Assembly: GCF_026241095.1 (NCBI RefSeq)
Contig: NZ_JAPFGB010000008.1
Coordinates: 62,001 to 126,000 of the forward strand
Direction: 5' to 3'
DNA from: Saccharopolyspora sp. NFXS83
GTDB lineage: Bacteria; Actinomycetota; Actinomycetes; Mycobacteriales; Pseudonocardiaceae
DNA length: 64,000 bases
Shown: one piece after another, positions 18,962 through 57,330 of the stretch
Layout: each line of letters begins with the position of its first letter
Position numbering within the stretch: position 1 is the stretch's first letter
The notes under the pieces: model-generated
Database searches by the model: none
What the model was told of the DNA's origin: nothing
Seen by the model: the letters and a program-made list of their open reading frames with translations, nothing else
Position numbers and translations under genes: made by a program

Positions 18962-19270
18962 GGTGGCGGAACCTCAGCGGCTTCCTCGCTGCGGGATCTT
19001 TTTCCCAAGTGGCTCCGCCACGAGGGAAAAAGCTGTCCTCGCGAGGAAGCCGCTGAGAACCCGCGGGTGGGCGGCTTTTCGACGTGGGCTATGCGCTGGC
19101 GCGCATACAGGCACGGCCTTCGGCCGCAAAGCAAGCGGGCTTCGCCGCCCACTGCACGGCCTTCGGCCGCCAGGCACGGCTTTGCCGCGAGGATTCGGCT
19201 TTGCCGGACGGCATGGACTTCAGGCGCGAGGTGGGCTTCGCTTCGCGTGCGCTTGCGGCTTCGCCGTTGA
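18962..19270 (+). repeat. Dispersed structured repeat, copy 1
   Basis: This is the first of three copies of an intergenic element. The core (18966-19090) forms a long hairpin. Outer arms CTCAGCGGCTTCCTCGC (18973-18989) and GCGAGGAAGCCGCTGAG (19041-19057) pair perfectly, and the inner arms TTTTTCCC (18999-19006) and GGGAAAAA (19024-19031) close on GTGGC-TCC-GCCAC. A conserved tail, ACCCGCGGGTGG then CTTTTCGACGTGGGCT, is followed by several small hairpins such as CGGCCTTCGGCCG. It lies between the 3' end of the Gfo/Idh gene and the 5' end of xfp. Homologous copies are at 33900-34150 and 57110-57330. Confidence 0.9.
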
Positions 19271-19287
19271 GTGGGTTTCGGTGGCCG

Positions 19288-20337
19288 TCAGCTCAGGTGG
19301 ACGATTTCGCCCTTGGTGGCGGAGTGGCGGGCTGCTTCGATGATCTCCAGGCCTGCGATGGCGTCGGACGGGTCCACCGGTAGCGGTGCGCCGTCGCGCA
19401 AGGCGGTGACCAGGAGGTCGTAGAACTCGGGGTAGGCACCCGGCTCGGTGGGCACCGGCGCGGAGCCCTCGACGGTGCCGAGCACGCCGTGCAGCTCCTC
19501 GGGTTCGACGCCCCAGTCCGCGCCGGGAAGTTCACCGGCGCGCAACGCCGCTTCCTGCGGGTCCAAGCCGAACTTCGTGTAACCGGCGCGGTCGCCCAGC
19601 ACCCGCAGCCGGGGGCCGTGCTGCGCGGTGAACTTGCCGACCCACAGGTGCGACCGCACTCCGCTGACGTGGGTGAGCGCGACGAACGAGTCGTCGTCGA
19701 CTTCGCTGCCCGGCCTGCGGGCGTCCACTTCGGCGTAGACGGACGCGACCGGGCCGAACAGCGCCAGCGCCTGGTCGATCAGGTGGCTGCCCAGGTCGTA
19801 GAGCACGCCGCCCGCCTCCTCCGGGCCGCCGGATTCGCGCCAGCCCGCCTTCGGCCGCGGCACCCAGCGCTCGAACCGGGACTCGAAGCGGTGCACCCGG
19901 CCCAGCTCCCCGGCGTCGATGAGCCCGGCGAGGGTGCGGAAGTCGTTGTCCCAGCGGCGGTTCTGGAACACGGTCAGCGGCAGTTCCCGGCGCCGCGCCT
20001 CGGCGACGAGTTCGCGCGCCGCGGCGGCGGTGGGGGCGAACGGCTTGTCCACCACGACCGGCAGCCCGGCGCCCAGCGCCTCGGTGGTGTGCTCGACGTG
20101 CAGCCCGTTCGGGCTGGCCACCACGACCAGGTCCAGGTCGCCGCGCGCCAGCATCGCGGGAACGTCGTCGACCACCGCGGTGCCCGGGTGGCGGGTCTCG
20201 ATCTCCTTGCGCCGCTCCGGATTCCTGGTGACCACTGTGGACAGTTCCAGGCCGGGGTTCGACGCGATCAGCGGCGCGTGGAACACCGCCCCGGCGATGC
20301 CGTACCCGACCAACCCGACCCGCAGCGCAGCACTCAT
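19288..20337 (-). CDS. Gfo/Idh/MocA-family oxidoreductase
   Basis: The 349-residue NAD(P)-dependent sugar/inositol-type dehydrogenase starts with the Rossmann motif VGLVGYGIAGAVFHAPLI. It carries the family's cofactor/active-site stretch VVVDKPFAPTAAAARELVAEA, with the conserved Lys-Pro (EKP-like, here DKP) near residue 98. FQNRRWDNDFRTL and GGVLYDLGSHLIDQALALFG match the YdgJ-like subgroup. The substrate is not evident. The ATG lacks a strong Shine-Dalgarno. It is 23 bp from the response regulator in the same direction, so it could be the last gene of that operon or separate. Confidence 0.9.
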   Translation of the reverse strand: MSAALRVGLVGYGIAGAVFHAPLIASNPGLELSTVVTRNPERRKEIETRHPGTAVVDDVPAMLARGDLDLVVVASPNGLHVEHTTEALGAGLPVVVDKPFAPTAAAARELVAEARRRELPLTVFQNRRWDNDFRTLAGLIDAGELGRVHRFESRFERWVPRPKAGWRESGGPEEAGGVLYDLGSHLIDQALALFGPVASVYAEVDARRPGSEVDDDSFVALTHVSGVRSHLWVGKFTAQHGPRLRVLGDRAGYTKFGLDPQEAALRAGELPGADWGVEPEELHGVLGTVEGSAPVPTEPGAYPEFYDLLVTALRDGAPLPVDPSDAIAGLEIIEAARHSATKGEIVHLS

Positions 20338-20360
20338 GCCGCCATTACATCAAGCGCAGG

Positions 20361-21056
20361 TCAGACCGACGCTTCGGGACCGTTGACCTGGCCGGGCGAG
20401 ACCAGCCCGGTCTCGTAGGCGGTGATCACCAGCTGGGTGCGCGAGCTCAGGTGCAGCTTCTGCATCACGTGGTACAGGTGCGATTTCACCGTCAGCTCGG
20501 CCAAGCCCAGGTTCCGCGCGATGTCGGCGTTGGAGCCGCCGCGCGCGACCTCCAGCAGCACGTCCAGCTCGCGGTTGGTGAGCCCGCTGAGCTCCGTCGA
20601 CGCGTCCCGCACCCCCAACGACGCGAACCGGTTGAGCAGCCGCCGCGTCACGCGCGGAGCGAGCAGCGCCTCCCCGGCCGCGACCGTGTGCACGGCGCGG
20701 ACCAGTTCCTCCGGTGGGGCGTCCTTGAGCAGGAATCCGCTCGCGCCCGCCCGAAGCGCCGCGTACACGTACTCGTCGAGGTCGTGCACGGTGAGCATGA
20801 TGACCGACGTCGCGCCCTCGGTGGCGGTGAGGATCTCGCGGGCCGCGGTGATGCCGTCCATCCCGGGCATCCGCACGTCCATCAGCACCACGTCCGGGCG
20901 GCGCCTGCGCACCGCCGACACCGCCGCGGCACCGTCCTCGGCTTCGGCGAGGACTCGCAGATCGGGTTCGGCGGACAGCAGCGCCACCAGGCCCGCGCGG
21001 ATCATCGCTTGATCGTCGGCGACGAGCACGGTCGTTTCCGCGGGGGACTCCACCAC
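20361..21056 (-). CDS. NarL/LuxR-family response regulator
   Basis: The 231-residue regulator has a receiver domain (residues about 9-125) with phospho-acceptor Asp60 in VVLMDVRMPGMDG, Thr/Lys switch residues in VIMLTVHD and FLLKDA, and a LuxR-type HTH (about 160-220; LTNRELDVLLEVARGGSNADIA). It should bind DNA when phosphorylated by the adjacent histidine kinase. Tandem GTG codons at the start follow GGAGGAGG. The kinase lies 54 bp upstream on the same strand, forming a two-component operon. Target genes are unknown; Gfo/Idh downstream is a candidate. Confidence 0.93.
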   Translation of the reverse strand: MVESPAETTVLVADDQAMIRAGLVALLSAEPDLRVLAEAEDGAAAVSAVRRRRPDVVLMDVRMPGMDGITAAREILTATEGATSVIMLTVHDLDEYVYAALRAGASGFLLKDAPPEELVRAVHTVAAGEALLAPRVTRRLLNRFASLGVRDASTELSGLTNRELDVLLEVARGGSNADIARNLGLAELTVKSHLYHVMQKLHLSSRTQLVITAYETGLVSPGQVNGPEASV

Positions 21057-21110
21057 GGACCTCCTCCGTTCGGGCCGCCGCTCGCCGGTCGGAACCGGCG
21101 TATTTACGGG

Positions 21111-22358
21111 TCAGGCAAGGTCCGAATGTTCCGGGCACGGTAGCACGGCCGCCAAGTGGAATCCGTTGGAAACCGGGTGCGCAGTGAACGTGCCGCCCAG
21201 CAGCGCGACCCGTTCCCGCAGCCCGATCAGGCCTCGCCCGGAACCGCCGCCGCGAGCCGGTGACAACGCGGGCACCTTCACCGCCAGCGAACGAGCGAAG
21301 TTGTCCGGACCGGTGGCGTGGTTGGTGACCTCCAGCCGCAGGCCGCCGTTGCCGTAGTCCAGCAGGACCCGCGCGTACCCGGTGCCCGCGTGCTTGAGCA
21401 CGTTGGTCACCGCCTCCTGCACGATGCGGTAGGCGGCCATCTCCACACCGGGCCCCAGCTCGCGCACCTCGCCGCGGCGATCCAGCCGCCACACCACGCC
21501 GGTGCCGCGCACCGATTCCACCAAGTGGTCCACCCGGTGCAGACCGGGCGCGGGCTGCCGTCCGGGACCGTCGTCGGCACCGACGGCCGAACCCGGCTCC
21601 GGGTCCTCCCGCAACCGGCCCAGCAGGCCGCGGAGTTCGCCGAGCGCGGCCCGCGACGTGTGCTCAAGCTCCCGCAACGTCTGCTCGGCGTGCCCCGGAT
21701 CGCGGTCGACGAGTGCGCGGGCGACACCCGCGCGCAACGCCACCACGGACAGGTTGTGCGAAACGATGTCGTGGAACTCGCGGGCTATCCGCGCCCGCTC
21801 CCCCGCGACCGCCTCCGCGGCGAGCTGGTCCCGCGCCTGGTCGAGGAGTTCCACCGTGTGCTCCAGCTGAGCCGCCCGCCGCCGGCTGAGCCGCACCGCG
21901 TAGGCCAGGCCGACGACCATGAACAGGTCGATGGAAGCCATCACGGTGCTCACGATCGCGGACAGCGGCGGATCGCCCCACGAATACAGCACCGGCCAGA
22001 GCATCGCGAGAACCGTGGCCACCACGGCGCCCACGATCCCACCTCGCTGGCACACCGAGTACACGCCCACCAGGATCGCGAAGTTCAGCGGGTTCTCCGG
22101 CACCCCGACCAGGGTGAGCGTCGTGGCCGCGGCGAGGCTGCCCAGCAGCGCCACCCACGGCAACTTGCGCCGCAGCACCAGCAGCGTGAACGCGGGCACG
22201 CTGATCAGCATCATCGACCACCAGGGACGACCCGGCGGCCCTGGTGATTCGAGATGCAGGATCAGCGCGTGCATCACGGTGAACAGCACGACCATCGCGA
22301 GGTCGAGCAGGAACGCTCGCTTCACCAAGGCATTCGGCACGCCCAGCAGTATGCGCAC
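21111..22358 (-). CDS. DesK/NarX-type sensor histidine kinase
   Basis: The 415-residue kinase has four to five membrane segments in residues about 15-155, then a HisKA_3 dimerisation helix with His196 in ARIAREFHDIVSHNLSVV. The ATPase domain follows with N-box YRIVQEAVTNVLKHAG and G-box GRGLIGLRERVALLGG. There is no large extracytoplasmic domain, so the signal is probably sensed within or near the membrane. The GTG start is preceded by GAGG at 7 bp. It forms a pair with the response regulator immediately downstream. Confidence 0.93.
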   Translation of the reverse strand: MRILLGVPNALVKRAFLLDLAMVVLFTVMHALILHLESPGPPGRPWWSMMLISVPAFTLLVLRRKLPWVALLGSLAAATTLTLVGVPENPLNFAILVGVYSVCQRGGIVGAVVATVLAMLWPVLYSWGDPPLSAIVSTVMASIDLFMVVGLAYAVRLSRRRAAQLEHTVELLDQARDQLAAEAVAGERARIAREFHDIVSHNLSVVALRAGVARALVDRDPGHAEQTLRELEHTSRAALGELRGLLGRLREDPEPGSAVGADDGPGRQPAPGLHRVDHLVESVRGTGVVWRLDRRGEVRELGPGVEMAAYRIVQEAVTNVLKHAGTGYARVLLDYGNGGLRLEVTNHATGPDNFARSLAVKVPALSPARGGGSGRGLIGLRERVALLGGTFTAHPVSNGFHLAAVLPCPEHSDLA

Positions 22359-22373
22359 ACCGAGCCTCGATAA

Positions 22374-23003
22374 TCAGTAGCCTCGGGCCACCCAATCGTC
22401 GAACTGGGGCAATACCTCGCCGATCGTGGTGCTCTCCCCGTGACCGGGGTGCACGGTCGTGACCTCGGGCAGCGTCAGCAACCGGTCCCGGATGGATTCG
22501 ACGAGCACGCCGAAGTCCGAGTAGGAACGCCCGGTCGCACCCGGCCCACCGGCGAACAAGGTGTCACCCGTGAACACGGTCCCCAGGTCAGCCGAGTACA
22601 GGCACACCGAACCCGGCGCGTGCCCCGGCGTGTGCAGCACCTGCAGGCCGGTGCCGGCGACGCCGATCACCTGCCGGTCCGCGAGCCCGCGCTCCGGTTC
22701 CCGGTCCGGGTGGGTCAGCCGCCACAGCTCCAAGTCCTCCGGGTGCAGGAAGATCGGCGCCCCGACCTCCGCCGCCAGCTCCGGTGCCTTGCGCACGTGG
22801 TCGTCGTGGGCGTGCGTGGCGAGGATCGCCAGCACGCTGCGCCCGGCGATCAGCCCCTTGATCGCCTCGACGTCGTGCGGGACGTCGATGACGACGCACT
22901 CGGTGTCGTCGCCGACGACCCACGCGTTGTTGTCCACGTCGAAGGTCTGGCCGTCCAGCGAGAACGTGCCGGACGTCGTGGTGTGGTCGATCCGCGCGGC
23001 CAT
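22374..23003 (-). CDS. MBL-fold hydrolase, mycothiol-linked
   Basis: The 209-residue metallo-beta-lactamase-fold protein has the metal motif THAHDDH (LATHAHDDHVRKAPEL), then HTPGHAPGSVCLY, FTGDTLFAGGPG and TVHPGHGESTTIG. It is glyoxalase-II-like. Its ATG overlaps the TGA of the mycothiol dehydrogenase by one base (TGATG), so translation is coupled. The pairing of these two genes is conserved in mycothiol-making actinobacteria, where the hydrolase is expected to act on S-formylmycothiol or a similar thioester (inference from context). Confidence 0.9.
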   Translation of the reverse strand: MAARIDHTTTSGTFSLDGQTFDVDNNAWVVGDDTECVVIDVPHDVEAIKGLIAGRSVLAILATHAHDDHVRKAPELAAEVGAPIFLHPEDLELWRLTHPDREPERGLADRQVIGVAGTGLQVLHTPGHAPGSVCLYSADLGTVFTGDTLFAGGPGATGRSYSDFGVLVESIRDRLLTLPEVTTVHPGHGESTTIGEVLPQFDDWVARGY

Positions 23004-24085
23004 CAGAAGACCACCACCGAACGCAGCACTTCGCCGTCGTGCATCTTCGCGAACGCCGATTCGACCTGGTCCAGCGAGATCTCCTCGGTCACGAACTTCT
23101 CCAGCGGCAGCTTGCCCTGCTGGTAGAGCTCGGTGAGCATCGGGAAGTCCCTGCTGGGCAGGCAATCCCCGTACCAGGAGGACTTCAGTGAACCCCCGCG
23201 GGAGAACACGTCCTGCAGCGGCAGCTCCAGCTTCATGTCCGGAGTGGGCACCCCGACGAGCACCACGGTGCCCGCGAGGTCGCGCGCGTAGAACGCCTGC
23301 TCGTAGGTCGCGGGCACGCCGACGGCGTCGATCACGATGTCCGCGCCGAACCCGTCGGTGAGTTCGCGGATCGCCTCCACGGTGTTCGCCTCGGAGGCGT
23401 TGACGGTGTGGGTCGCGCCGAACTGCTTCGCCCACTCCAGCTTCGCCGGGTCGGTGTCCACCGCGATGACGCGCCGCGCACCGGCCAGGTTCGCCCCGGC
23501 CACCGCGCCGTCGCCGACGCCGCCGCATCCGATGACGGCGACCGTGTCACCCGGACCCGCGCCGCCGGTATTGACGGCCGCTCCGATACCGGCCATCACC
23601 CCGCAGCCCAGCAGGCCGACCACGGCCGCCCGCGCCGCCGGGTCGACCTTGGTGCACTGACCCGCGTGCACCAGCGTCTTCTCCGCGAACGCGCCGATGC
23701 CCAGCGCCGGGGACAGCGGGGTCCCGTCGGTGAGCGTCATCGGCTGCGACGCGTTGTGCGTGTCGAAGCAGTACTGCGGGCGCCCGCGCTTGCAGGCGCG
23801 GCACACCCCGCACACCGCGCGCCAGTTGAGGACCACGAAGTCACCCGGTTCGACGTCGTGGACACCGTCGCCGACGGCCTCCACGACACCGGCCGCTTCG
23901 TGCCCGAGCAGGAACGGGTAGTCGTCGTTGATGCCGCCTTCCCGGTAGTGCAGGTCGGTGTGGCAGACGCCGCACGCCTGCACCCGCACCACCGCCTCAC
24001 CCGGTCCCGGATCGGGGACCCGGATGTCGACGACCTCGACCGGCGCTCCCTTGCCGGTCGCCACGACCGCGCGAACCTCGGTCAC
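23003..24085 (-). CDS. mscR: S-(hydroxymethyl)mycothiol dehydrogenase
   Basis: The 360-residue zinc alcohol dehydrogenase oxidises the formaldehyde-mycothiol adduct and may also act on S-nitrosomycothiol. Catalytic zinc ligands are Cys41 (CGVCHTD) and His62-Glu63 (LLGHEAAG), and structural zinc Cys92, 95, 98 and 106 lie in [15 protein letters not shown]. The Rossmann motif is [21 protein letters not shown]. The [17 protein letters not shown] stretch near the C-terminus is typical of MscR. GTG 24085 follows GGAGG at 7 bp. It is the first gene of an operon with the MBL-fold hydrolase and indicates a mycothiol-producing actinobacterium. Confidence 0.94.
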
Positions 24086-24344
24086 GAACACCTCCAGAAC
24101 TGTGTTTTCACTGCTCGTCCGGCCGGAACGGGCCGGTTGCGGGCGCTGTCGCGAACATGGTCGGAAATGCGCATATCGACATCTCCGGACGATCACCGAC
24201 CATACCCCCCGATCGGCCGTAGCCCCCGAGCGCTCGACTGCGGTTCCGTCTGTGGGAACGCGCCGCGCGACAGGGCCGCTTCGACACGTTGTGTGAACCT
24301 GCGACTACTGTACGGTGTCGCCGACGGAGAACGAGGAGCACACC

Positions 24345-25157
24345 ATGGTCGACGCGCAGCGCCTGTTGTCCAGGGAAATGGACATCGACCGGCCTTGCGC
24401 GGCGCGGATCTACGACGCGTTCCTCGGCGGTGGCCACAACTTCGGCGTGGAGCGCGAGTTCGCCGAGCGGTTGCAGACGGCCATGCCCGGCGTGGCCGGG
24501 GTGTTCCGGGAGAACCGGGCGTTCCTGCGCCGCTCCGTGGAGCACCTGCTGGCGCGCGGTGTGCGGCAGTTCGTCGAACTCGGCTCGGGGATACCCACGA
24601 TCGGTCACGTGCACGAGGTCGCGCTCCGCCGCACCCGGCGGTTCAGCGTGCTGTACGTGGACAACGAGCCGCTGACCGTGGCGCACAGCAGACCGCTGCT
24701 CGACGACGAACCGCGGGCGGCGATCATCCACGCCGACATCCGGGATCCGGAGGCGATCCTGGGCTCACCGGAGGCGGCGGACCTGATCGACTTCGAGCAG
24801 CCCGTGGCGCTGGTGATGTCGGCGGTGCTGCACTTCCTCGACGACGCCGACGATCCGCTCCGGCTGGTGCGCACCTACCAGGACGCGGTCGCGCCCGGCA
24901 GCGCGTTGATGATCTCGCACCTGACCGGCAGCGAGGAACCGGAACCGATGAACCTGCTCACGGCGTTCTACACCGAAACGGCCGATCCGATGGTGGCGCG
25001 CCCGGCGGAGTGGATCGCGGAGTGCTTCGCCGGGTTCGAGCCGCAGGCACCCGGCACCTGCTACATCGGCGACTGGCGCCCGGAACCGGACCAGCCGACC
25101 CACCGGCATCCGCGCTACCGGATCATGCACGGCGGCGTCGCGCGCAAACCCCGCTAG
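24345..25157 (+). CDS. SAM-dependent methyltransferase, SAV2177/DUF574 type
   Basis: The 270-residue protein matches the actinobacterial Methyltransf_19 family. Stretches include DIDRPCAARIYDAFLGGGHNF near the N-terminus, the SAM-binding region RQFVELGSGIPTIGHVHE, VLYVDNEPLTVAHSR, and VALVMSAVLHFLDDADDP. WIAECFAGFEPQAPG lies near the C-terminus. The family is abundant in Streptomyces and Pseudonocardiaceae, but its substrates are unknown. ATG 24345 follows CGAGGAGCACACC; GTG 24315 is a less likely alternative. The stop overlaps the end of the convergent MFS gene by 4 bp. Confidence 0.9.
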   Translation: MVDAQRLLSREMDIDRPCAARIYDAFLGGGHNFGVEREFAERLQTAMPGVAGVFRENRAFLRRSVEHLLARGVRQFVELGSGIPTIGHVHEVALRRTRRFSVLYVDNEPLTVAHSRPLLDDEPRAAIIHADIRDPEAILGSPEAADLIDFEQPVALVMSAVLHFLDDADDPLRLVRTYQDAVAPGSALMISHLTGSEEPEPMNLLTAFYTETADPMVARPAEWIAECFAGFEPQAPGTCYIGDWRPEPDQPTHRHPRYRIMHGGVARKPR

Positions 25158-26350
25158 GGAGTTCCCGCCGACCCGGTCGGCCGCACGAACAGCAGCAGGA
25201 TCCCGGCGACGATCGCGGCGACGCCCGCGGCCAGCCAGGCCGAGGTGAGGCCCGCGTGCTCGCCGAGGAAGCCGAACAGCAGCGGGCCCGCGCTACCGCC
25301 GAAGTAGATTCCCGTCTGGGTGAACGAGGTCGCGCTCGCCACCCGGTCCGGCGCGATCTTGGCGACGGAGAAGTTCAGCAGCCCCGGCCACGCCCATCCG
25401 GCGCCGAAGCCGACGGACACGCCGATCAGGAACAGCGCCGGGGAGTCCAGCGCCATCAGCCCGTACCCGAGCGAGCCGACGACCAGCATGATCGTGATGA
25501 GCCGCAGCAGGTTCACGTCCCACCGGTCGGCGACCACTCCGGCGAGCAGCCGGATGGTGAGCCCGGCCGCCGAACCCAGCGAGAGCACCAGCCCGGCCGC
25601 CGACGGGCTGAACCCCACGTCGACGGCGGTGGTCGTGACGAAGGCCCCCAGCGCGTTGGCCGCCGCCGAGCCGAGGCCGCCCGCGATGGCGATCAGCAGC
25701 AGCGCCCCGAACCGGGACTCACCGCTCGTCCCGGTCGAGGAGGTCCGGGTGGACCGCTCCGCCGCGGGCAGCGACGGCACCGCGAGCGCGGCGAGCAGGC
25801 CGAGCACTCCGGCGAACACGAACACCCAGCGCCAGCCGATGGTGAGCGCGATGGCCGGCACCGCGACCCCCGCCAGCAGCGTCGCGGCCGGGATGGACGA
25901 CTGCTTGACGCCGAATCCCATGCCGCGCCGGTTCGCGGGCACGCCCTGGGTGATCAGCAGGTTCGCGGCGGGCTGCGCCAAGGAGTTCGGCAGTCCGGAC
26001 AGGCACAGCAGCGCCAGCAGCCAGCCCGAGTCCTGCACCGAGGCGATGCCCAGCAGGCACAGGGCGCTGCCCGCGGCGCCGATGCGCATGGCCAGGCGGG
26101 AACCGATGCGTTCCACGACCCAGCCCATGAAGCGGGAGGCGATCGCCGCGACGGCGAAGAACCCGGCGGCGGCTCCGCCGAGCAGCGCCGCGCCGAAACC
26201 GAGTTCGCGTTGCAGCTGCACGCCGAGCCCTCCGACGAGGAACACGGGGAACACGCCGACGGTGACGACCGCCGCGACCGAGGACAGCACCCGAACGGGC
26301 CCGACCGGGAGTGCGCGCGGGTGACTGCCGTTGACCACCGCTGCGGGCAT
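25154..26350 (-). CDS. MFS transporter
   Basis: The 398-residue inner-membrane protein shows about twelve hydrophobic segments with a charged central loop (AERSTRTSSTGTSGESRF) between halves. The loop between segments 2 and 3 has the MFS-like GWVVERIGSRLAMRIG. The overall pattern resembles CynX/NimT-type and other small-molecule transporters. ATG is preceded by GAGGAGG. It is divergent from the amidase at 26550 and could export or import a substrate related to it, but this is only inference. Confidence 0.88.
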   Translation of the reverse strand: MPAAVVNGSHPRALPVGPVRVLSSVAAVVTVGVFPVFLVGGLGVQLQRELGFGAALLGGAAAGFFAVAAIASRFMGWVVERIGSRLAMRIGAAGSALCLLGIASVQDSGWLLALLCLSGLPNSLAQPAANLLITQGVPANRRGMGFGVKQSSIPAATLLAGVAVPAIALTIGWRWVFVFAGVLGLLAALAVPSLPAAERSTRTSSTGTSGESRFGALLLIAIAGGLGSAAANALGAFVTTTAVDVGFSPSAAGLVLSLGSAAGLTIRLLAGVVADRWDVNLLRLITIMLVVGSLGYGLMALDSPALFLIGVSVGFGAGWAWPGLLNFSVAKIAPDRVASATSFTQTGIYFGGSAGPLLFGFLGEHAGLTSAWLAAGVAAIVAGILLLFVRPTGSAGTP

Positions 26351-26549
26351 CGGTCCTCCTCTGTTCGGAGCCGGGCAGGCTCGTCGCCAGCGTGTGAACC
26401 GGCGAAGCGTTTAGCAACGCTAACGTGACGCATGCCTCCGGGTGAGCACTCGAATGCGCTCGCAACCGGCCTTGACGGGGTACCCGTGCACGCGACACGG
26501 TCAACGGGTGACCGGATCCGGTCACGATCGGATTCGGGCGGGAGGCCGG

Positions 26550-33899: not shown

Positions 33900-34150
33900 C
33901 CGGCCCGCGAGGGGAGCCTGCCTCGCGGCCGAAGGCCGTGCCTCGCGGCGAAGCCGTGCAGTGGGCGGCGAAGCCCGCCTGCCCTGCGGCCGAAGGCCGT
34001 GCCGTATGCGCGGCAGCGCACAGCCCACGTCGAAAAGCCGACCACCCGCGGGTTCTCAGCCGGTCTCTCGCGAGGACGGCTTTTTCCCTCGTGGCGGAGC
34101 CACGAGGGAAAAGATCCCGCAGCGAGAAGACAGCTGAGGTTCCGCCAGAC
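33900..34150 (-). repeat. Dispersed structured repeat, copy 2
   Basis: This copy is on the minus strand. It keeps the core and the tail with CACGGCCTTCGGCCGC mini-hairpins. The right arm GCGAGAGACCGGCTGAG (minus strand, over 34055-34071) is identical to that of copy 3. The left arm (34122-34138) has diverged and pairs with three mismatches and one wobble. The inner hairpin (TTTTCCCTCGTGGC with its complement) is fully paired here, more than in the other copies. It lies between the convergent GntR and 3-hydroxybutyryl-CoA dehydrogenase gene ends. Confidence 0.9.
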
Positions 34151-34171
34151 GACCACCAAAGCAGAACGACC

Positions 34172-35035
34172 TCAGGAGTAAGCGTAAAACCCCTGGCCGG
34201 ACTTCTTGCCGTAGTGACCCGCGTCGACCATGCGCTGCAGCAGCGGCGGCGCGGCGTAGAGCTGCTCCTTGTACTCGCCGTACATCGAGTCGCCGATGGC
34301 TTTGAGCGTGTCGAGCCCGACCATGTCGGACAGCGCCAACGGCCCCATCGGGTGGGCGCAGCCCAGCACCATGCCGTTGTCGATGTCCTCGGCGGTGGCG
34401 ACTCCGCTCTCGAACATCCGGATCGCGGAGAACAGGTACGGCACCAGCAGCGCGTTCACCACGAAACCGGAGCGGTCCTTGGCGCGGATGCTCTGCTTGC
34501 CGAGGCCGTCGGTGGCGAAGGCGGCGACGCGCTCGACGGTTTCCTCGGAGGTCACCAGCGACGGCACGAGTTCGACGAGCTTGAGCACCGGCACCGGGTT
34601 GAAGAAGTGCACCCCGATGACCTGCGCGGGGCGCTGGGTGGCACCGGCGAGCTTCGCGATCGGGATGGAGGACGTGTTGGACGCGAGGATCGCGGCGGGG
34701 TCGGTGACCACCCGGTCCAGTTCGGCGAACACGCCGGTCTTGAGCTGTTCGTTCTCCGCGATGGCCTCGATGACCAGCTGCCGGTCCGCGAGGTCGGCCA
34801 GCGAGGTGGTGAACCGCAGGCGCCCCAGCGTCGCGTCCCGCTCGGCTTCCGCGAGCTTGCCCCGGCTCACCGCGCGGTCCAGCGACTTGGTGATGCGCGC
34901 CCGGCCGGCTTCGGCGGCGTCTTCGCTGACCTCCGAGACGATCACGTCCAGCCCGCTGCGGGCGCTGACCTCCGCGATGCCCGCACCCATGAGTCCGGAG
35001 CCCACCACGCCTACGCGTTCGATTCCCGTCACCAC
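34172..35035 (-). CDS. hbd: 3-hydroxybutyryl-CoA dehydrogenase
   Basis: The 287-residue enzyme has the Rossmann motif VGVVGSGLMGAGIAEVSARSG, VIEAIAENEQLKTGVFAELD, SNTSSIPIAKLAGAT and the active-site stretch GVHFFNPVPVLKLVELVPS with the catalytic His. DRSGFVVNALLVPYLFSAIRM and LGCAHPMGPLALSDMVGLD complete the C-terminal dimer domain. It oxidises 3-hydroxybutyryl-CoA to acetoacetyl-CoA. It may complete the crotonyl-CoA route started by the nearby glutaryl-CoA dehydrogenase, although an enoyl-CoA hydratase is not in the window. The GTG at 35035 is followed by a second GTG. Confidence 0.93.
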   Translation of the reverse strand: MVTGIERVGVVGSGLMGAGIAEVSARSGLDVIVSEVSEDAAEAGRARITKSLDRAVSRGKLAEAERDATLGRLRFTTSLADLADRQLVIEAIAENEQLKTGVFAELDRVVTDPAAILASNTSSIPIAKLAGATQRPAQVIGVHFFNPVPVLKLVELVPSLVTSEETVERVAAFATDGLGKQSIRAKDRSGFVVNALLVPYLFSAIRMFESGVATAEDIDNGMVLGCAHPMGPLALSDMVGLDTLKAIGDSMYGEYKEQLYAAPPLLQRMVDAGHYGKKSGQGFYAYS

Positions 35036-47646: not shown

Positions 47647-47714
47647 CGTGGAATCCCCTCGTAGCCGTGCAGCGAGACGCCAGCGTAGCGAAACGACCGC
47701 GCGGGCGGCCCTCC

Positions 47715-49070: not shown

Positions 49071-49086
49071 GTTCGGCTCCCTCTCG

Positions 49087-50208: not shown

Positions 50209-50237
50209 CGGCCACTCCTCTGCTCTGCCACGCCGGT

Positions 50238-50810
50238 TCACGCGCTGCGCGCTTGTGCGCGGTGCTTGCCCTCCGCGATCTCTTCGACGACCTTCGCGCA
50301 GAACGCGGGGAGGTCGCCCGGGTTCCGGCTGGTCACGAGGCCGGAGTCCACGACCACTTCCTCGTCGACCCACTCGGCACCCGCGTTGCGCAGATCGGTG
50401 CGCAGGCTCGGGTAGGACGTGACCCGGCGACCGCGCACCACGTCGGCCTCCACCAGCAGCCACGGCGCGTGGCAGATCGCGGCGACCGGTTTCTGCAGCG
50501 CGAAGAACCCACCCGCGAACCGGACCGCGTCCGGAACCCGGCGCAACGCGTCCGGGTTCGCCACCCCGCCGGGCAGCACCAGCGCGTCGTACTCGTCCGG
50601 CTCCGCCTCGGTGACGACCTTGTCCACGGGGAACGTGTCGGCCTTCTCCAAGTGGTCGCGCCCCTGCACCGAACCGGGTTGCAGCGACACCAGTTCCGGG
50701 CGGCCACCCGCCTGCTCCACGGCTCGCCACGGCTCGGTCAGCTCCACCTGCTCAATGCCGTCCTGCGCCACCAGGAAAGCGACCTTGGCGCCGTTCAGGT
50801 CCGCGCTCAT
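50238..50810 (-). CDS. DJ-1/PfpI-family protein (type 1 glutamine amidotransferase-like)
   Basis: The 190-residue protein has VAFLVAQDGIEQVELTEPW, DALVLPGGVANPDALR, and the nucleophile elbow AAICHAPWLLVEADVV with Cys113 and the neighbouring His. This is the YhbO/PfpI type (protease or glyoxalase-like repair). The ATG at 50810 follows GGGAGGTGCGAGTG. It heads the three-gene operon with the Vms1-like and DUF2795 genes, so a stress-repair role is likely. Confidence 0.9.
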   Translation of the reverse strand: MSADLNGAKVAFLVAQDGIEQVELTEPWRAVEQAGGRPELVSLQPGSVQGRDHLEKADTFPVDKVVTEAEPDEYDALVLPGGVANPDALRRVPDAVRFAGGFFALQKPVAAICHAPWLLVEADVVRGRRVTSYPSLRTDLRNAGAEWVDEEVVVDSGLVTSRNPGDLPAFCAKVVEEIAEGKHRAQARSA

Positions 50811-51029
50811 CACTCGCACCTCCCACGGGGGTCGCGGCGGGCCGTTCGCGCCTCGCCGCTCAGCCGTGCCCTACCCGGCGCACCCCGGCGGCAAACCGCG
50901 GGGGGCGGCGAGCGCGCCCCCGCGACGCGGCATTCGAGGCCGGTGGAGATCTGGCGGCTCGCATCGTGACCACACCCCCGGACCGGCGGTTAAGGTGACC
51001 GGGCCAGCCACGATCAAGGAGCCGGACCC

Positions 51030-51488
51030 ATGCGCCCAGGCGACACCGTCGACGACTTCGCCCTGCCCGACCAGCACGGCACCGAACGCAAGCTCTCCGA
51101 GCTGCTCGGCAACGGCACCGTGGTGCTGTTCTTCTACCCCGCGGCGATGACCTCCGGCTGCACCGCGGAGAGCTGCCACTTCCGCGACCTGTCCGCGGAG
51201 TTCGCCGAGCTCGGCGCGCACCCCGTCGGCATCAGCACCGACACCGTCGCCAAGCAGGCGACGTTCGCGCAGACCCACTCGTTCGACTACCCGCTGCTGT
51301 CCGACCGCGAAGGCGTCGTCGCCCGGCAGTTCGGCGTGAAGCGCCGCTTCGGCCCGCTACCGGTCAAGCGCCACACCTTCGTCATCGGCTCGGACCGGGT
51401 CGTGCTGGAAGTGGTGCGCAGCGAGTTCAACATGGCCTCCCACGCCGACACCGCGCTGACCTTCCTCCGGGACGAGCGCGGCGCCTGA
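51030..51488 (+). CDS. bcp: Peroxiredoxin (BCP/PrxQ type)
   Basis: The 152-residue thiol peroxidase has peroxidatic Cys44 and resolving Cys49 in PAAMTSGCTAESCHFRDL. Phe/Tyr before Cys and the downstream STDTVAKQATFAQTHSFDYPLLSDREGVVARQFGV are typical. It reduces hydroperoxides with thioredoxin. ATG follows AAGGAGCCGGACCC. It stands alone, divergent from the PfpI operon. Confidence 0.93.
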   Translation: MRPGDTVDDFALPDQHGTERKLSELLGNGTVVLFFYPAAMTSGCTAESCHFRDLSAEFAELGAHPVGISTDTVAKQATFAQTHSFDYPLLSDREGVVARQFGVKRRFGPLPVKRHTFVIGSDRVVLEVVRSEFNMASHADTALTFLRDERGA

Positions 51489-51627
51489 GCGGGCGCGACC
51501 GGTCAGCCCTCCGCCCGGTGGAATCGAGCCGGACGAGGCGAGCCCGGGCGCTCCCCCCGGCGAGGGGCCGTGCGTCCACCTCCGGAGCCGAGGACGGCGA
51601 ATTCCGCTTCGCCGCCCCGGCCACGGC

Positions 51628-52629
51628 TCACTTCGGCGGATCGGCGCAGGAGGGGTTCAGCAGCTTCTGGATCTCCGGGGTGTTCAGGTTCTCCCGGGTG
51701 ACCACCGTGGATCCGGTGTTGGTCTCCGGGGCGCCCTGCTGCTCGCCGCGGATCTCCTCGATCGCCGAGTTCACCGAGGCGAAGCCCATCTTGAACGGGT
51801 TCTGCGCGATCAGGCCGGTGATCACGCCTTCCTCCAGCGAGTCGATCTGGCCTTCCGAGGTGTCCCAGCCGATGATCTTGATCTGGCCCTTCTTGCCCGC
51901 CTGGCGCACCGCTTCCGCCGCGCCCAGCACGCTCGGCTCGTTGCCCGCGTAGATCCCGTTGAGGTTCGGGTTCGCCGTCAAGATGTCCTGGGTGACCTGC
52001 AACGCCGTGTTGTAGTCGCTGTTCGAGGACTGGCGCGCCACCAGCTTCAGCCCCGGGTTCTGCTGCAAACCGCGCTGGAATCCCTCCGCGCGCGTCTCGT
52101 TCGTGCTGGTGCCCGGCAGGAACTCGATGAACGCCACCTCGCCCCGGCCGCCCAGCTGATCCGCCAGCAACTGGGTGCCCTCCTCGGCGGCGGCCACGTT
52201 GTCGGTGGCGAACACCGGCACCTCCGGCGGCTGCGGAGTCGTGCCCGAGTCCATGTTCACCACCGCCGTGCCCTGCTGCCGCGCCGACTTCGTGACCTCC
52301 GCCAGCGCCTTCGCGTCCGTCGCCGCGAACACCAGGCCCTGCACGCCCTGCGCCAACGAGTCCTGCAGCAGGCTCTGCTGCCCGCTGACGTCGTCCTCCG
52401 AGGTCACCCCGTCCCAGTGGACGTTGACGTTCGGGTGCTTGGTGGCCGCGCACTCGGCGCCGACCCGCACCTGCTCCCAGAAGTCGAAACCGATCGCCTT
52501 CGGGATCACGGCGAGCCGGATCGTGCCACCCTCCTGCGCGTTCACCCCGGTCGGCCTGCGCACCTCCAAGCTGCACGCCGACGACGTCAGCAGCACCGCC
52601 AGGCACAGCAGCGGAAGAACCTTCTTCAT
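51628..52629 (-). CDS. Ribose/inositol-type sugar-binding lipoprotein
   Basis: The 333-residue protein has signal peptide and lipobox LAVLLTSSACS (Cys at about 20), then a type I periplasmic binding fold. Typical stretches are IRLAVIPKAIGFDFWEQVRVGAECAATKHPNVNVHWDGV, VFAATDAKALAEVTKSARQQGTAVVNMDSGTTPQ, VAFIEFLPGTSTNETRAEGFQRGL, and YAGNEPSVLGAAEAVRQAGKKGQIKIIGWDTSEGQIDSLEEGVI. ATG 52629 follows GAGGGAG. It is the third gene of an ATPase-permease-binding-protein operon. Substrate unknown. Confidence 0.92.
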   Translation of the reverse strand: MKKVLPLLCLAVLLTSSACSLEVRRPTGVNAQEGGTIRLAVIPKAIGFDFWEQVRVGAECAATKHPNVNVHWDGVTSEDDVSGQQSLLQDSLAQGVQGLVFAATDAKALAEVTKSARQQGTAVVNMDSGTTPQPPEVPVFATDNVAAAEEGTQLLADQLGGRGEVAFIEFLPGTSTNETRAEGFQRGLQQNPGLKLVARQSSNSDYNTALQVTQDILTANPNLNGIYAGNEPSVLGAAEAVRQAGKKGQIKIIGWDTSEGQIDSLEEGVITGLIAQNPFKMGFASVNSAIEEIRGEQQGAPETNTGSTVVTRENLNTPEIQKLLNPSCADPPK

Positions 52630-52655
52630 CGCAGCGAACTCCCTCGTTCCCGAGC

Positions 52656-53711
52656 TCAACCGGCGTCGCCGGCGAGCTTGCGGCGCTGGTAGAAGTCCCA
52701 CCACACGGCCAGCCAGATGATCACGCCGATGAGCACGTTCTGGTAGAAGGTGCCGATGTTGAGCTGCACCGCGCCGTTGCGGATCACCGCGACCAAGAAC
52801 GCGCCGATCAGCGAACCCCACACCGTGCCGCGACCGCCGAACAGGCTCGCGCCGCCGATCACGACCGCGGCGATCACGTCCAGCTCCAAGCCCTCGCCGA
52901 AGTTCGGCTGGCCCGAGTTGATCCGCGAGGCGGCGATCATGCCGCCCAGCCCGGCCAACATGCCCGACACCACGTACACCCAGGTCGTGTGCTTGCGGAC
53001 CGGCACACCGGACAGCCGCGCCGCCTCCGAGTTCGACCCCATCACGTACGCGTAGCGGCCCAGCCTCGTCCGCGTCAGCAGGACGTGGCCCGCGACCGCC
53101 ACGATCAGGATCAGCAGCACCGGCACCGGAACGGGTCCCAGCACGCCCTGCCCGAGCAGCCGGAACGACTCCGGAGCGCCGAACACCGCCACCGCGCCCG
53201 TCGCGATCAGCACCAGGCCGCGCGCCACGCTGAGCATGCCGAGCGTCGCGATGAACGGCGGCAACCCCACCGTCGACACCAGCAGGCCGTTGACCAGGCC
53301 CGCCGCCGCGCCGACGACGATCCCGCCGAGGATGCCCAGCAGCGGGTTGAAGCCGAAGTCCGCCATGAGCATCACGCCCAGGACCCCGGACAGCGCCGCC
53401 ACCGACCCCACCGACAGGTCGATGCCACCCGTGATGATCACCAGCGTGACGCCGACCGCCATCACCGCGTTCACCGAGGTCTGCGACCCCAGGTTGAACA
53501 GGTTGTCCGCCGTCAGGAACGACGGCGCCACGATGGACAGGACGACGAACACCACGATCAGCGCACCGGCCGCCGCGACCTGCGAGATCGCGCCCGACAG
53601 CCGATCCGTCAGCCCGCCCAGCGCGCCCGGACCGCCCGTCTTCGTCGCGGTCGCGGTACCACCACCGCCGTCCGGCGTGGCGCCTTCGTCCTTCCCCGAC
53701 TGGTCGCTCAC
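52656..53711 (-). CDS. RbsC-type sugar ABC permease
   Basis: The 351-residue permease has a Gly/Thr-rich cytoplasmic N-terminus and about ten membrane segments. The BPD_transp_2 signature is NLGSQTSVNAVMAVGVTLVIITGGIDLSVGSVAALSGV and GASLFGGRGTVWGSLIGAFLVAVIRNGAVQLN. The GTG start overlaps the ATPase stop (GTGA). It pairs with the double-ATPase and binding protein as a ribose-like importer. Confidence 0.93.
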   Translation of the reverse strand: MSDQSGKDEGATPDGGGGTATATKTGGPGALGGLTDRLSGAISQVAAAGALIVVFVVLSIVAPSFLTADNLFNLGSQTSVNAVMAVGVTLVIITGGIDLSVGSVAALSGVLGVMLMADFGFNPLLGILGGIVVGAAAGLVNGLLVSTVGLPPFIATLGMLSVARGLVLIATGAVAVFGAPESFRLLGQGVLGPVPVPVLLILIVAVAGHVLLTRTRLGRYAYVMGSNSEAARLSGVPVRKHTTWVYVVSGMLAGLGGMIAASRINSGQPNFGEGLELDVIAAVVIGGASLFGGRGTVWGSLIGAFLVAVIRNGAVQLNIGTFYQNVLIGVIIWLAVWWDFYQRRKLAGDAG

Positions 53712-55243
53712 TGGCCCTCCTTCGCTCCGGTGGCGAGCGCCACGACGCGTTCCTCGGAGAACTCCGCGCGCTCGACCTCACCCGTGATCCGGCCCTCGCG
53801 CAGCACGAGGATCCGATCGCACATGTTCAGCAACTCCGGCAGATAACTGGAGATCAGCACTACCGCCTTGCCCTGCGCGGCCAGCGCGTCCAGCTGGCTG
53901 AACATCTCCGACTTCGCGCCCACGTCCATGCCGCGGCCGGGCTCGTCGAAGAACAGCACCTCGGCCTCGGTCTGCAACCAGCGCGCCAGCACCACCTTCT
54001 GCTGGTTGCCGCCGGAGAGCGCCTGCACCGGCCTGCCCACCCAGGGCACCCGGATGTTCAGCCGATCCCGCTCCTGCTCGGCGATGCGGCGCTCCGCGCC
54101 CAAGTCGATCATTCCCGAGACCATCGGCAGCTTCGCCAGCGTGATGTTCTTGTCCAAGCCCAGCTGCAGCGCCAGCCCGTCGGCCTTGCGGCTCTCGGTG
54201 AGGTAGCCGATGCCCGCGGCGATCGCGTCCGCCGGGCCGCGGATCTTGAGCTGCGCCCCGTCCAGCGACACCACGCCCGCGTCGGGCGGTTCCGCGCCGA
54301 ACACCGACCTGGCGAGCTCCGTGCGCCCCGCCCCGACCAGGCCCGCCATACCGACGATCTCCCCGGCGCGCACGTCGAAGGACACGTCGCGCACCGCGTC
54401 GCCCCGGCTCAGCCCGCGCACGCTCAGCCGCACCGCACCCGGCTCCGCGTAGGTGCGCGGGTACAGGTTCTGCACGTCGCGGCCCACCATGAGCGTCACC
54501 AGCCGCGACTCGTCGAGCTCCGCGACCGGGCGGGTCGCTACCACCGCGCCGTCGCGCAGCACCGTGACCCGATCACCGATCTCGAAGATCTCGTCCAAGC
54601 GGTGCGAGATGTAGAGCACTCCGATGCCCTGCGCGGTGAGCTCGCGGACGATGCCGAACAGCTCCTCGGTCTCGCGCTCGGTCAGCGTCGCCGTCGGCTC
54701 ATCCAGGATGAGCACCTTCGCCTCCACTGCCAGCGCCTTCGCCAGCTCCACCCGCTGCTGCTCGGCGGTGGACAGCCGGCCCACCCTCCTGCCCGGATCG
54801 ACCCGCAGCCCCACCTTCGCCAGCAGCTCGCGGGCCGCGCGGCGCTCCTCGGCGCGCGAGATCCAGCCGCCGCTGCCGGGCTCGTGGCCGATGAACAGGT
54901 TCTCCGCCACCGACAGGTCCGGGGCCAGCGCGAACTCCTGGTGCACCATCGAGATGCCGAGGCGCCGCGCCGAGGCCGGGCCCTGGTAGGTCACCTGGGC
55001 GCCGTCGACCTCGATCCGCCCGGACGTCGGCGGCTCCACCTGCGCGACCAGCTTCATCAACGTCGACTTGCCCGCGCCGTTCTCCCCGGCCAGCACGTGC
55101 ACCTCGCCGGCCCGCACGTCGAGGTCCACATCGGACACCGCGACGACTCCGGGGAATCGTTTGCTCACACCGGAAAGCCGGACCACGGCGCGCGCGGGCG
55201 CCGAATCCGGGTCGGCCGAACCGGGTTGCAAGGATTGCGACAC
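53708..55243 (-). CDS. RbsA-type sugar ABC ATPase (two ABC domains)
   Basis: The 511-residue protein has two fused ABC domains. The first has Walker A GENGAGKST, signature LSTAEQQRVELAKAL and Walker B VLILDEPTA. The second has a degenerate Walker A (GLVGAGRTE), signature LSGGNQQKVVLARWL, and VLFFDEPGRGMDVG, as is normal for RbsA/MglA. The first signature is LSTAE, not LSGG. GTG 55243 follows GAGGGAGGCGGC; ATG 55264 is an alternative with poorer spacing. It is the first gene of the operon. Confidence 0.92.
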   Translation of the reverse strand: MSQSLQPGSADPDSAPARAVVRLSGVSKRFPGVVAVSDVDLDVRAGEVHVLAGENGAGKSTLMKLVAQVEPPTSGRIEVDGAQVTYQGPASARRLGISMVHQEFALAPDLSVAENLFIGHEPGSGGWISRAEERRAARELLAKVGLRVDPGRRVGRLSTAEQQRVELAKALAVEAKVLILDEPTATLTERETEELFGIVRELTAQGIGVLYISHRLDEIFEIGDRVTVLRDGAVVATRPVAELDESRLVTLMVGRDVQNLYPRTYAEPGAVRLSVRGLSRGDAVRDVSFDVRAGEIVGMAGLVGAGRTELARSVFGAEPPDAGVVSLDGAQLKIRGPADAIAAGIGYLTESRKADGLALQLGLDKNITLAKLPMVSGMIDLGAERRIAEQERDRLNIRVPWVGRPVQALSGGNQQKVVLARWLQTEAEVLFFDEPGRGMDVGAKSEMFSQLDALAAQGKAVVLISSYLPELLNMCDRILVLREGRITGEVERAEFSEERVVALATGAKEGQ

Positions 55244-55452
55244 GCCGCCTCCCTCGATCTTCATGATCGCCCGCCGCAGCGGTGCGCCGGAGCATACTCA
55301 CAACATCACACGCTCGAAAGGCTTGCAGCGAAGCCAAGAAACCGATTACCGATCGTTGCACGCGAACGGCTGCAGCGACATCCGCGAACGCCGCAACCAC
55401 GACCTCCGTAAGCTCGACGGGGCCACCGAAGTAATCCAGAGGGGGACGAAAC

Positions 55453-57066
55453 GTGCAGCCGCTGCTGGCCAGCGAACCGGACAGAGTCGGTGATTACCGG
55501 CTGCTCGCGCGGATCGGCGGGGGCGCGATGGGAGCCGTGTACCTCGCCCGATCCCGTGGCGGTCGGGGCGTGGCGATCAAAGTCGTGCGCCCGGAGCTCG
55601 CCGACGACGGCGAGTTCCGCGAACGGTTCCGCCGCGAAGTCGACATGGCCCGCTCCGTCGGCGGGTTCTGGACGGCCACCGTCATCGACGCCGACACCGA
55701 AGCCGCCCAGCCGTGGCTGGCCACCGAATACGTGCCCGGCCCCACCCTGCACCGGGCCGTCGCCGACCACGGGCCGCTGCCGGAGCAGACGGTGCGCACC
55801 CTCGCCGCCGGTCTCGCCGAAGCGCTCGGCGCCATCCACCGGGCCGGTCTCGTGCACCGCGACCTCAAACCCGGCAACGTGCTGCTCGGCCCCGACGGGC
55901 CGCGCGTCATCGACTTCGGCATCTCGCGGGCCATGAGCAGCAGCAACCTCACCGCCACCGGGATCTTCCTCGGCACGCCCGGCTTCTTCTCCCCCGAGCA
56001 GACCGTGGGCAGCGACGTCGGACCGCCCAGCGACGTGTTCTCGCTCGGCGCGGTGCTCATGTTCGCCGCCACCGGCGCCGGACCGTTCGGCAACGAGAAC
56101 ACCGCCGCCATGCTGTACCGCGTCGTGCACAACGAGCCCGACCTGAGCTCGCTGCCCACCGGCTTGCGGTCGCTCATCGGCTCCTGCCTGGCGAAGGAAC
56201 CCGCGGACCGGCCGACCCCGGCCGCGCTGCTGGACCAGGCCGGCGAGTCCTCACCGCAGAACGACAGCTGGCTGCCCGCCGAGATCACCGCCGTGATCAC
56301 CGAGCACACCGCGCAGCTCAAGCAGGCCTCCGAAGCCGCTCCACCCGCTCCGCCCGCCGCCGGGACTCCTCCGCCGCCGCGCACGCAGCGCGGCGGCTCG
56401 GACTGGTCGGCGGCCCCGGCCGCACCGGCGAAGCCGATCATCCCGTCGCGGCCGAAACCGACCGCGCAGCAGCCGAACCCCGGCACCGCCGCACCCGCGC
56501 GCATCGCCCCCTCCCGGCCCGAACCACCCGTCGAGCGAGTGCGCGGCGACGGGCCCGGCCCGGTGTTCGCGCTCGGCGGCCGGGTCGGGGCGCTGCTGTC
56601 CGCGGCGATCATGTTCGGGCTGATCTACCTGGTCGTCCAGGTCAGCCGGAGCAGCAGCCCGGATGCGGAGATCTGGGCGCTGGCCCAGTTCGGCATGGTG
56701 CTGCTGACCATCAGCGGCGCGCTGTCCCTCGGCAAGGCGCTGCTGCCGAGCCTGCGGCTCAAGGTCAGCGGTGAGGGGCTGCGGATCTCCCGCGCCGGGC
56801 TCGCCAGGGAAGTCCCGTGGAGCCAGATCAGCCGCGTCGCCGTCGTCGGCAGCGGCAAGCGCCAGTCGGTGACCGTGTGGACCCGGCCCGGCGCCCCCGC
56901 CCAGGGCTGGCGGATCTGGAACCCGACCCGGCCCTACCACGGCGGCGTGCGCCTGTACCCGATCGGCGCCGCGGGCGGCCCGATCACCCGGCGCCAGGAA
57001 GGACGCCGGGTGCGCCAAGCGCTCCAGCAGTACGGCCGCGGCACCTACGACGACCGCATGATCTGA
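55453..57066 (+). CDS. Membrane Ser/Thr protein kinase with C-terminal PH-like domain
   Basis: The 537-residue protein has a Hanks-type kinase domain (about 12-265): IGGGAMGAVY, Lys43 in VAIKVVRPE, HRDLKPGN with Asp137, and DFG at 154-156. SEPEQTVG-like FFSPEQTVGSDVGPPSDVFSLG follows. A Pro/Ala-rich linker (300-370), two membrane segments (about 377-395 and 412-430) and a C-terminal PH-like domain (LKVSGEGLRISRAGLAREVPWSQISRVAVV, GWRIWNPTRPYHGG) complete it. GTG 55453 follows GAGGGGGACG. It is monocistronic, ending before the third dispersed repeat. The C-terminal PH-like module is unusual for the PknB class. Confidence 0.9.
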   Translation: MQPLLASEPDRVGDYRLLARIGGGAMGAVYLARSRGGRGVAIKVVRPELADDGEFRERFRREVDMARSVGGFWTATVIDADTEAAQPWLATEYVPGPTLHRAVADHGPLPEQTVRTLAAGLAEALGAIHRAGLVHRDLKPGNVLLGPDGPRVIDFGISRAMSSSNLTATGIFLGTPGFFSPEQTVGSDVGPPSDVFSLGAVLMFAATGAGPFGNENTAAMLYRVVHNEPDLSSLPTGLRSLIGSCLAKEPADRPTPAALLDQAGESSPQNDSWLPAEITAVITEHTAQLKQASEAAPPAPPAAGTPPPPRTQRGGSDWSAAPAAPAKPIIPSRPKPTAQQPNPGTAAPARIAPSRPEPPVERVRGDGPGPVFALGGRVGALLSAAIMFGLIYLVVQVSRSSSPDAEIWALAQFGMVLLTISGALSLGKALLPSLRLKVSGEGLRISRAGLAREVPWSQISRVAVVGSGKRQSVTVWTRPGAPAQGWRIWNPTRPYHGGVRLYPIGAAGGPITRRQEGRRVRQALQQYGRGTYDDRMI

Positions 57067-57109
57067 CGTGTGGATGGGTTCGGGGCTCGTTTTGCTCTGG
57101 TGGTCGGGT

Positions 57110-57330
57110 GGCGGAACCTCAGCCGGTCTCTCGCTGCGGGATCTTTTTCCCAAGTGGCTCCGCCACGAGGAAAAAGCCGTCCTCGCGAGAGACCGGCTGA
57201 GAACCCGCGGGTGGTCACCTTTTCGACGTGGGCTACGCGCTTCGCACATACAGGCGACGGCCTACGGCCGCAAGGCAGACTTCGCTTCGCTCGTCCAAGG
57301 CACGGCTACGCCGCGAGGCACGGCTTCGCC
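57110..57330 (+). repeat. Dispersed structured repeat, copy 3
   Basis: Third copy of the element. Left arm CTCAGCCGGTCTCTCGC (57118-57134) and right arm GCGAGAGACCGGCTGAG (57185-57201) pair perfectly although they differ from copy 1 at several positions (covariation). The inner TTTTTCCC / GGAAAAA and GTGGC-TCC-GCCAC match copy 1, with one G fewer on the right side. The tail CTTTTCGACGTGGGCT and mini-hairpins follow to 57330. It lies between the convergent kinase and lactonase gene ends. Confidence 0.9.

Follow-up and report, generated by a model that had tools for sequence, protein, structure and literature searches.

Three copies of a structured repeat in the window

The stretch of DNA analysed here, called the window, comprises 64,000 nucleotides of the genome of Saccharopolyspora sp. 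NFXS83 (contig NZ_JAPFGB010000008.1, positions 62,001 to 126,000) and contains three copies of a strongly folding intergenic repeat, at the places given for them in the initial annotation. Copy 1, on the plus strand, starts with a leader of about 27 nt that is conserved among copies (18939-18965, from the copy alignment), followed by a main hairpin (H1; 18966-19064, from fold and core alignment) with 17-bp outer arms of the type GGCTTCC, a second hairpin (H2; TATGCGC-TGGC-GCGCATA, 19090-19107), the position of which matches that in other copies, and a tail of short palindromes (19108-19284, right end approximate). Copy 2 is read on the minus strand, with its leader at 34146-34172, the outermost base lying inside the stop codon of the minus-strand gene at 34172-35008, H1 at 34048-34145, an imperfect H2 at 34005-34022 and a tail of short palindromes at 33915-34004 (far end approximate). 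For copy 3, again on the plus strand, alignment placed the leader at 57084-57110, fold and core alignment placed H1, with arms of the type CGGTCTC, at 57111-57208, and an imperfect H2 (57234-57250) and a tail of short palindromes (57251-57335, end approximate) follow. The second hairpins and tails of all three copies were read from the sequence. The unit extends beyond the core by the leader, the second hairpin and the tail.

The outer arms of copies 1 and 3 differ from each other and pair perfectly within each copy, as had been described. Copy 2 had been taken for a copy in which one arm had drifted; comparison of its sequence with that of its ortholog reveals instead a chimera, the left arm being of the common type TGTCTTC and the right arm of the other common type GAGACCGG, and in the nearest congener's ortholog the TGTCTTC type is found on both sides. 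Folding energies of the cores with short flanks amounted to -72.7, -64.1 and -70.1 kcal/mol for copies 1, 2 and 3, respectively, corresponding to z-scores of -5.8, -6.2 and -7.6 (200 shuffles each).

That each copy lies at a gene end holds for copies 2 and 3, which are located just 3' of the stop codons of a co-oriented 3-hydroxyacyl-CoA dehydrogenase gene and a co-oriented protein kinase gene, respectively. According to a simple gene caller, copy 1 is located 3' of an oppositely read gene, and another gene starts about 100 bp away from it.

Anatomy of the repeat unit

The unit consists of a leader, for which a length of about 27 nt is indicated by the rise of information near position -27 in the aligned copies, the 99-nt hairpin H1, a linker and usually the short hairpin H2; in the NFXS83 genome it also ends in a tail of small palindromes. 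H1 has the foot GCGG/CCGC, followed by a conserved AAC/AAC mismatch and by outer arms of 17 bp; its middle is asymmetric and conserved (TGCGGGATC / GCTGTCC), and the inner stem and loop are variable. The hairpin foot has a GTRG tetranucleotide, the last G of which is the first base of the stem, in 61 of 78 NFXS83 copies (GTGG in 48, GTAG in 13) and in 48 of 56 copies from other genomes (28 and 20, respectively).

Behind H1 at 47 loci of other genomes (14 from congeners), a search for the longest hairpin whose loop has 3-5 bases gave a TNC triloop at 37 loci, with T, C, G and A in the N position 11, 10, 11 and 5 times, and T-NN-C at 3. The remaining 7 loci, 5 of them from one genus, had a different hairpin or none. 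In that genus, g61 (loci L242-L245 and L251), no H2 was seen and the arms end in CTCAC/GTGAG instead of CTCAG/CTGAG. Among the tail loops of 73 NFXS83 tails (stems of at least 5 bp) C(TNC)G occurred 114 times and C(GNA)G twice, whereas 230 kb of flanking DNA contained 19 and 18, respectively; TTC accounts for 104 of the 114 loops, for which shared descent is possible. UNCG RNA tetraloops were ruled out for the tail, in which TNC triloops close most stems.

Single copies depart from this plan in other ways. About 55 extra bases are found in the H1 tip at L270 and L275, which lie behind related genes, and 16 of 17 outer pairs hold there. At L044 and L084 the left foot has changed to match the right foot (GCGGGTT). 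In one NFXS83 copy (L076, C34:261418) the core is inverted with respect to leader and tail, an arrangement that suggests inversion between the arms.

Copy number and distribution

The repeat is far from limited to the three copies counted initially. An exact pattern for the inner part matched the NFXS83 genome 75 times (35 forward, 40 reverse) and one for the outer part 128 times, and the reversed-pattern controls gave no match; matches to the outer pattern include chance hits, since 8 of the G003 rows listed, and a few NFXS83 rows too, were judged unrelated by eye. At least eight assembly contigs (C2, C9, C14, C18, C20, C35, C47 and C69) end in or beside a copy, so the repeat probably breaks the assembly and the NFXS83 copy number is undercounted.

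The further copies that had been predicted for relatives exist: of the 297 Pseudonocardiaceae genomes sampled, from 46 genera, 78 genomes and 15 genera were positive. For one gene, the best named relatives, at 74-76%, were those in Halosaccharopolyspora and Saccharopolyspora. In a smaller scan all six genomes of the genus, NFXS83 included, and 7 of 30 other family members were positive, and none of 24 genomes from other families of the same order. A sample of the class gave 2 positives among 394 genomes, both in the family, the sample not being broken down into members and non-members. All genome scans used strict filters and capped scoring, under which low-copy genomes may escape and copy numbers are lower bounds.

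At the Rfam gathering level the whole window matched four tRNA models only, the tRNA genes being located at 2000-2301 (minus strand) and 4114-4185 (plus strand), and window positions 18900-19300 had no Rfam match up to an E-value of 1. A small RNA or riboswitch was set aside on account of this and of too many copies. Window positions 18935-19100 had no match at an E-value of 1e-5 among 72,556 plasmid and 50,697 phage records, from which records near the NFXS83 genome were possibly excluded, and a plasmid or phage origin was set aside on these grounds. In line with the initial statement that no description of the family was known, none appeared among the titles and abstract openings of the literature matches listed.

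Maintenance of pairing in the stems

Covariation was assessed in a cross-genome alignment of 31 sequences (29 distinct rows) from 13 genomes and 8 genera. In total, 89.7% of the cells pair and 24 of 40 pairs display two-sided changes; none of 500 shuffles matched the paired share or the two-sided count, one of 500 reached the number of pair types, and slid controls gave 10-14 pairs. For 67 NFXS83 copies, two-sided changes were found in 13 of 40 pairs, a count equalled by 2 of 500 shuffles, and the other four covariation measures were equalled by none. These counts are inflated by relatedness and by arm types shared between copies. The pairs of the foot and of the arm ends also swap sides in other genera. 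The stems are maintained in a paired state, as had been proposed from the window copies.

Placement behind stop codons

With a simple codon-usage gene caller, 72 of 79 NFXS83 copies could be placed. The upstream gene is co-oriented in 53 of them, comprising 31 convergent and 21 tandem arrangements and one without a called downstream gene, whereas both genes are reversed in 16 and the genes diverge in 3. At loci of other genomes the upstream gene is co-oriented in 41 of 47 cases and a divergent placement occurs once. H1 starts 19-49 bp past the stop codon in 45 of the 58 NFXS83 copies with a co-oriented upstream gene, 3 being nearer and 10 farther. The unit occupies the 3' ends of genes, with its leader at the stop codon and mostly in sense orientation. 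Assuming that the origin is at base 0, 64 of 92 listed copies in G003 are co-oriented with replication, which is not decisive because genes share such a bias.

This placement raises the possibility that the element acts in the sense transcript, as a terminator or as an mRNA-stabilising hairpin that was spread by recombination and selected for its RNA fold. Co-orientation, tight spacing from the stop codon and the rarity of divergent placements are in favour of such a role, as is the very stable fold, and TTTT occurs 10-12 nt behind H1 in all three window copies. However, no U-run was seen directly behind H1.

Turnover at orthologous sites

Occupancy differs between the six genomes of the genus (NFXS83, here G000, and G001-G005). 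In a syntenic stretch of 20 kb, G000 and G001 have copy 1, whereas G002-G005 lack it and have 68-99 bp between the aligned flanks. The site of copy 2 is occupied in G000-G003, with arms that differ in each genome except for a left arm common to G000 and G001; in G004 and G005 (L227, L228) about 2.6 kb of other sequence are found there instead of the element. Conversely, G002 and G003 contain copies at sites that are empty in NFXS83. When nine sites in three stretches were compared, NFXS83 sites were also occupied in 8 of 8, 6 of 8 and 2 of 7 assessable cases in G001, G002 and G003, respectively, and occupancy therefore tracks relatedness.

The content of the sites behaves differently. Elements at orthologous sites are 82.3% alike (n = 26) and unrelated pairs 80.3% (n = 219; p = 0.07), and the values are 85.9% for orthologs and 85.7% for unrelated elements between G000 and G001, the flanking sequences of which mostly share 92-94% identity. 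One of the 26 ortholog pairs has identical left arms. Plain vertical descent of the copies at shared sites is thus unsupported as far as content is concerned, the content being replaced while sites are shared. At 2 of 9 orthologous sites the whole element, including leader and tail, is reversed in one species, with a leader again beside a stop codon. Window copy 2 and the copies at C3:12943 and C45:298955 have chimeric arms, which resemble the outcome of an incomplete conversion. The initial annotation had read compensatory changes as an argument against duplication; this does not stand for a dispersed repeat that gains or loses sites, has its content replaced and shares arm types among copies.

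In another genus, five species with 1-4 detected copies keep one behind gatB, a gene identified through the Pfam domains GatB_N and GatB_Yqey for one locus and through matching gene ends for the others. Arms and foot differ among the five species in compensated pairs, with 17, 16, 16, 16 and 13 of the 17 outer pairs intact. In three of these genomes the copy behind gatB is the only one detected; their arms differ and 16 of 17 outer pairs are kept, which indicates that conversion between copies is not the whole explanation of the pairing. The occupancy of this site in five species would also suit an RNA element of the sense strand. An iron/manganese superoxide dismutase gene (Pfam; L229:6629-7252, minus strand) was noted beside a copy of the element and has a second match, of 94-98% identity, at another place in G001-G003.

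A dispersed, non-coding palindrome that is present in some congeners and absent from others could also be a miniature inverted-repeat transposable element (MITE) belonging to a conventional DDE insertion sequence, which would have inverted repeats at its termini and duplicate its target. Inspection by eye showed no inverted-repeat relationship between leader and tail, and orientation and placement are non-random. No target duplication was recognisable in the one comparison of filled and empty forms, at copy 1, the flanks of which have diverged. We consider such an origin very improbable.

Strand preference of the fold

Under selection on a sense RNA, G-U mispairs would be expected to exceed A-C mispairs, and no such excess is seen overall. 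On the sense strand, outer and inner stems of 67 NFXS83 copies contain 27 G-U and 38 A-C mispairs, and for other genomes (65 loci, 50 distinct outer-arm pairs) the counts are 7 and 35. For distinct outer arms pooled, the counts are 23 and 47 (p = 0.006, shared ancestry ignored). The bottom strand folds better in 51 (RNA parameters) or 55 (DNA parameters) of 57 H1 sequences from other genomes (9 from congeners), and in 41 (p = 0.09) or 52 of 67 NFXS83 sequences, respectively. The compensatory changes do not by themselves support RNA, there being no G-U excess in the sense strand and the antisense strand being the better folder in other genomes. An RNA element of the sense strand is on this evidence possible, if rather unlikely.

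Read on the bottom strand, the TNC loops of H2 and of the tail are GNA loops. C(GNA)G loops form unusually stable DNA mini-hairpins (Yoshizawa 1997, cited in an excerpt of PMC6479982), and in phage N4 early promoters the ends of the GNA loop and the closing pair are required for hairpin extrusion at physiological supercoiling (excerpt of PMC4496689). One strand of the element shows these loop ends and this closing pair; in contrast to phage N4, its loops sit in H2 and in the tail of a dispersed chromosomal repeat, and no promoter role is indicated. A bottom-strand structured RNA that is antisense to the upstream gene's end would likewise place the more stable fold and the G-U pairs on that strand. 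However, about half of the copies (37 of 72 in NFXS83 and 24 of 47 loci of other genomes) lie between genes of the same direction, where it would need a promoter of its own, and the C(GNA)G loop is a known stable loop of DNA; we regard a bottom-strand RNA as quite improbable. The fold evidence favours DNA of the bottom strand, short of proof.

Search for a mobilising enzyme

Transposases of the Y1 type (PF01797) were detected in two of the six genomes of the genus, G004 and G005. Of 32 hand-picked genomes of other genera, half were positive and half negative for the element; Y1 was present in 9 of the 16 positive and in 1 of the 16 negative ones (Fisher p = 0.006). By genus the association has p = 0.012, a rough value as three of the negative genomes come from genera in which other members have the element. 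Y1 being commoner in element-positive genomes, an HUH enzyme may have been a past mobiliser. Nineteen Y1 loci of about 8 kb each were inspected; they cover 20 of the 32 Y1 matches listed. TnpB (Pfam OrfB_IS605) adjoins one Y1 gene (L292), and the other loci are IS200/IS605-like by eye. Several Y1 genes have, about 100 bp upstream, a motif similar to the hairpin foot; it was dropped because it is located at the divergent start of the neighbouring gene, TnpB in the one locus tested.

Discussion

We give even chances to the interpretation that the repeat is a non-autonomous, mobile DNA hairpin of 3' gene ends, similar to repetitive extragenic palindromic (REP) sequences, that is found in one actinobacterial family and is kept for its fold. 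The element would spread in folded, single-stranded form, with the bottom (antisense) strand as the most likely one, and a putative enzyme would recognise the conserved internal loops and the foot, not the arm sequence. Complementarity of the arms may be kept by selection for the fold, aided by conversion among copies and perhaps also by copying from arm to arm. A more elaborate version, in which the bottom-strand hairpin is the substrate of a putative hairpin-specific nuclease or recombinase, insertion occurs in sense orientation beside stop codons and arms are actively rewritten, so that each species has a different self-complementary insert at the same address, seems to us unlikely.

Several observations weigh against a mobile DNA hairpin. 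No transposition event was observed, and differences in occupancy might be losses. Sense orientation and tight spacing from the stop codon are what an RNA terminator would be expected to have. In the 36 distinct outer-arm pairs of NFXS83, G-U mispairs (16) outnumber A-C mispairs (12), conserved G-U/U-G pairs occur in mid-stem of H1 on the sense strand, and the strand preference in this genome is weak by mispairs and by RNA energies; in addition, all mispair counts ignore shared ancestry. Computed energies of H2 are equal for both strands, the special stability of GNA loops perhaps being outside the energy model. Finally, no enzyme dedicated to mobilisation was found: PF01797 is absent from the copy-rich genomes G000-G003, and none of the 19 Y1 loci has an element beside the Y1 gene, the nearest approach being one weak match (E-value 6e-4) at a distance of 1.5 kb.

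Like REP sequences, bacterial interspersed mosaic elements (BIMEs) and REP doublets forming hairpins (REPINs), the element is a high-copy intergenic palindrome with an imperfect stem and conserved mismatches in which structure is conserved more than sequence, and its GTRG foot tetranucleotide recalls the tag (GTAG or CGTC) that REPs have at one end. REP palindromes measure 20-40 bp (excerpt of PMC3733652), whereas the core of the element has 99 nt, to which a second hairpin is added. It differs further from systems of REPs and REP-associated tyrosine transposases (RAYTs) by its sense placement behind stop codons, by hosts (G000-G003) without a Y1 transposase and by 19 Y1 loci without an adjoining copy. 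A RAYT partner was rejected since G000-G003 lack PF01797, and because of size and enzyme we do not file the element as a REP/RAYT system.

The attC sites of integrons are folded as the bottom strand, have conserved unpaired features and a variable tip, and are located just behind stop codons; their core motifs RYYYAAC and GTTRRRY pair at the foot. The element shares the probable bottom-strand fold, the conserved unpaired features, the variable tip and the location behind the stop codon. It differs in that its sites can be filled or empty while the upstream gene remains. At its foot, moreover, GCGGAAC faces AACCCGC, with AAC opposite AAC, and no RYYYAAC/GTTRRRY core sites were seen by eye. Pairs of uptake sequences and other dispersed hairpins at 3' ends are thought to terminate transcription. 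The element is likewise a repeated inverted repeat at gene ends, whereas it is much longer and has two hairpins and highly variable arms, and we know of no uptake motif for it. Families of uptake sequences have been described (excerpt of PMC2267715). Dispersed intergenic palindromes are therefore known in kind; anatomy, placement and host group of the present one are new as far as our searches go.

Of the roles offered in the initial annotation, a REP-like mobile palindrome fits best, a bidirectional terminator is compatible with the data and a small RNA fits worst. Terminator action at the sites of the element is plausible, and the element probably serves there as a 3'-end barrier (a putative terminator or insulator); such a role would account for its toleration so close to stop codons.

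If the interpretation as a mobile DNA hairpin is true, actinobacteria own a large REP-like system that is locked to gene ends, apparently without a RAYT, and in which the content of copies is renewed more quickly than the genes around them, with pairing retained. Covariation in dispersed repeats, it follows as a lesson, need not imply RNA. The family would then offer a natural experiment for separating selection on a DNA hairpin from selection on RNA, allow a test of how repeats reach stop codons and point towards a new hairpin-processing enzyme.

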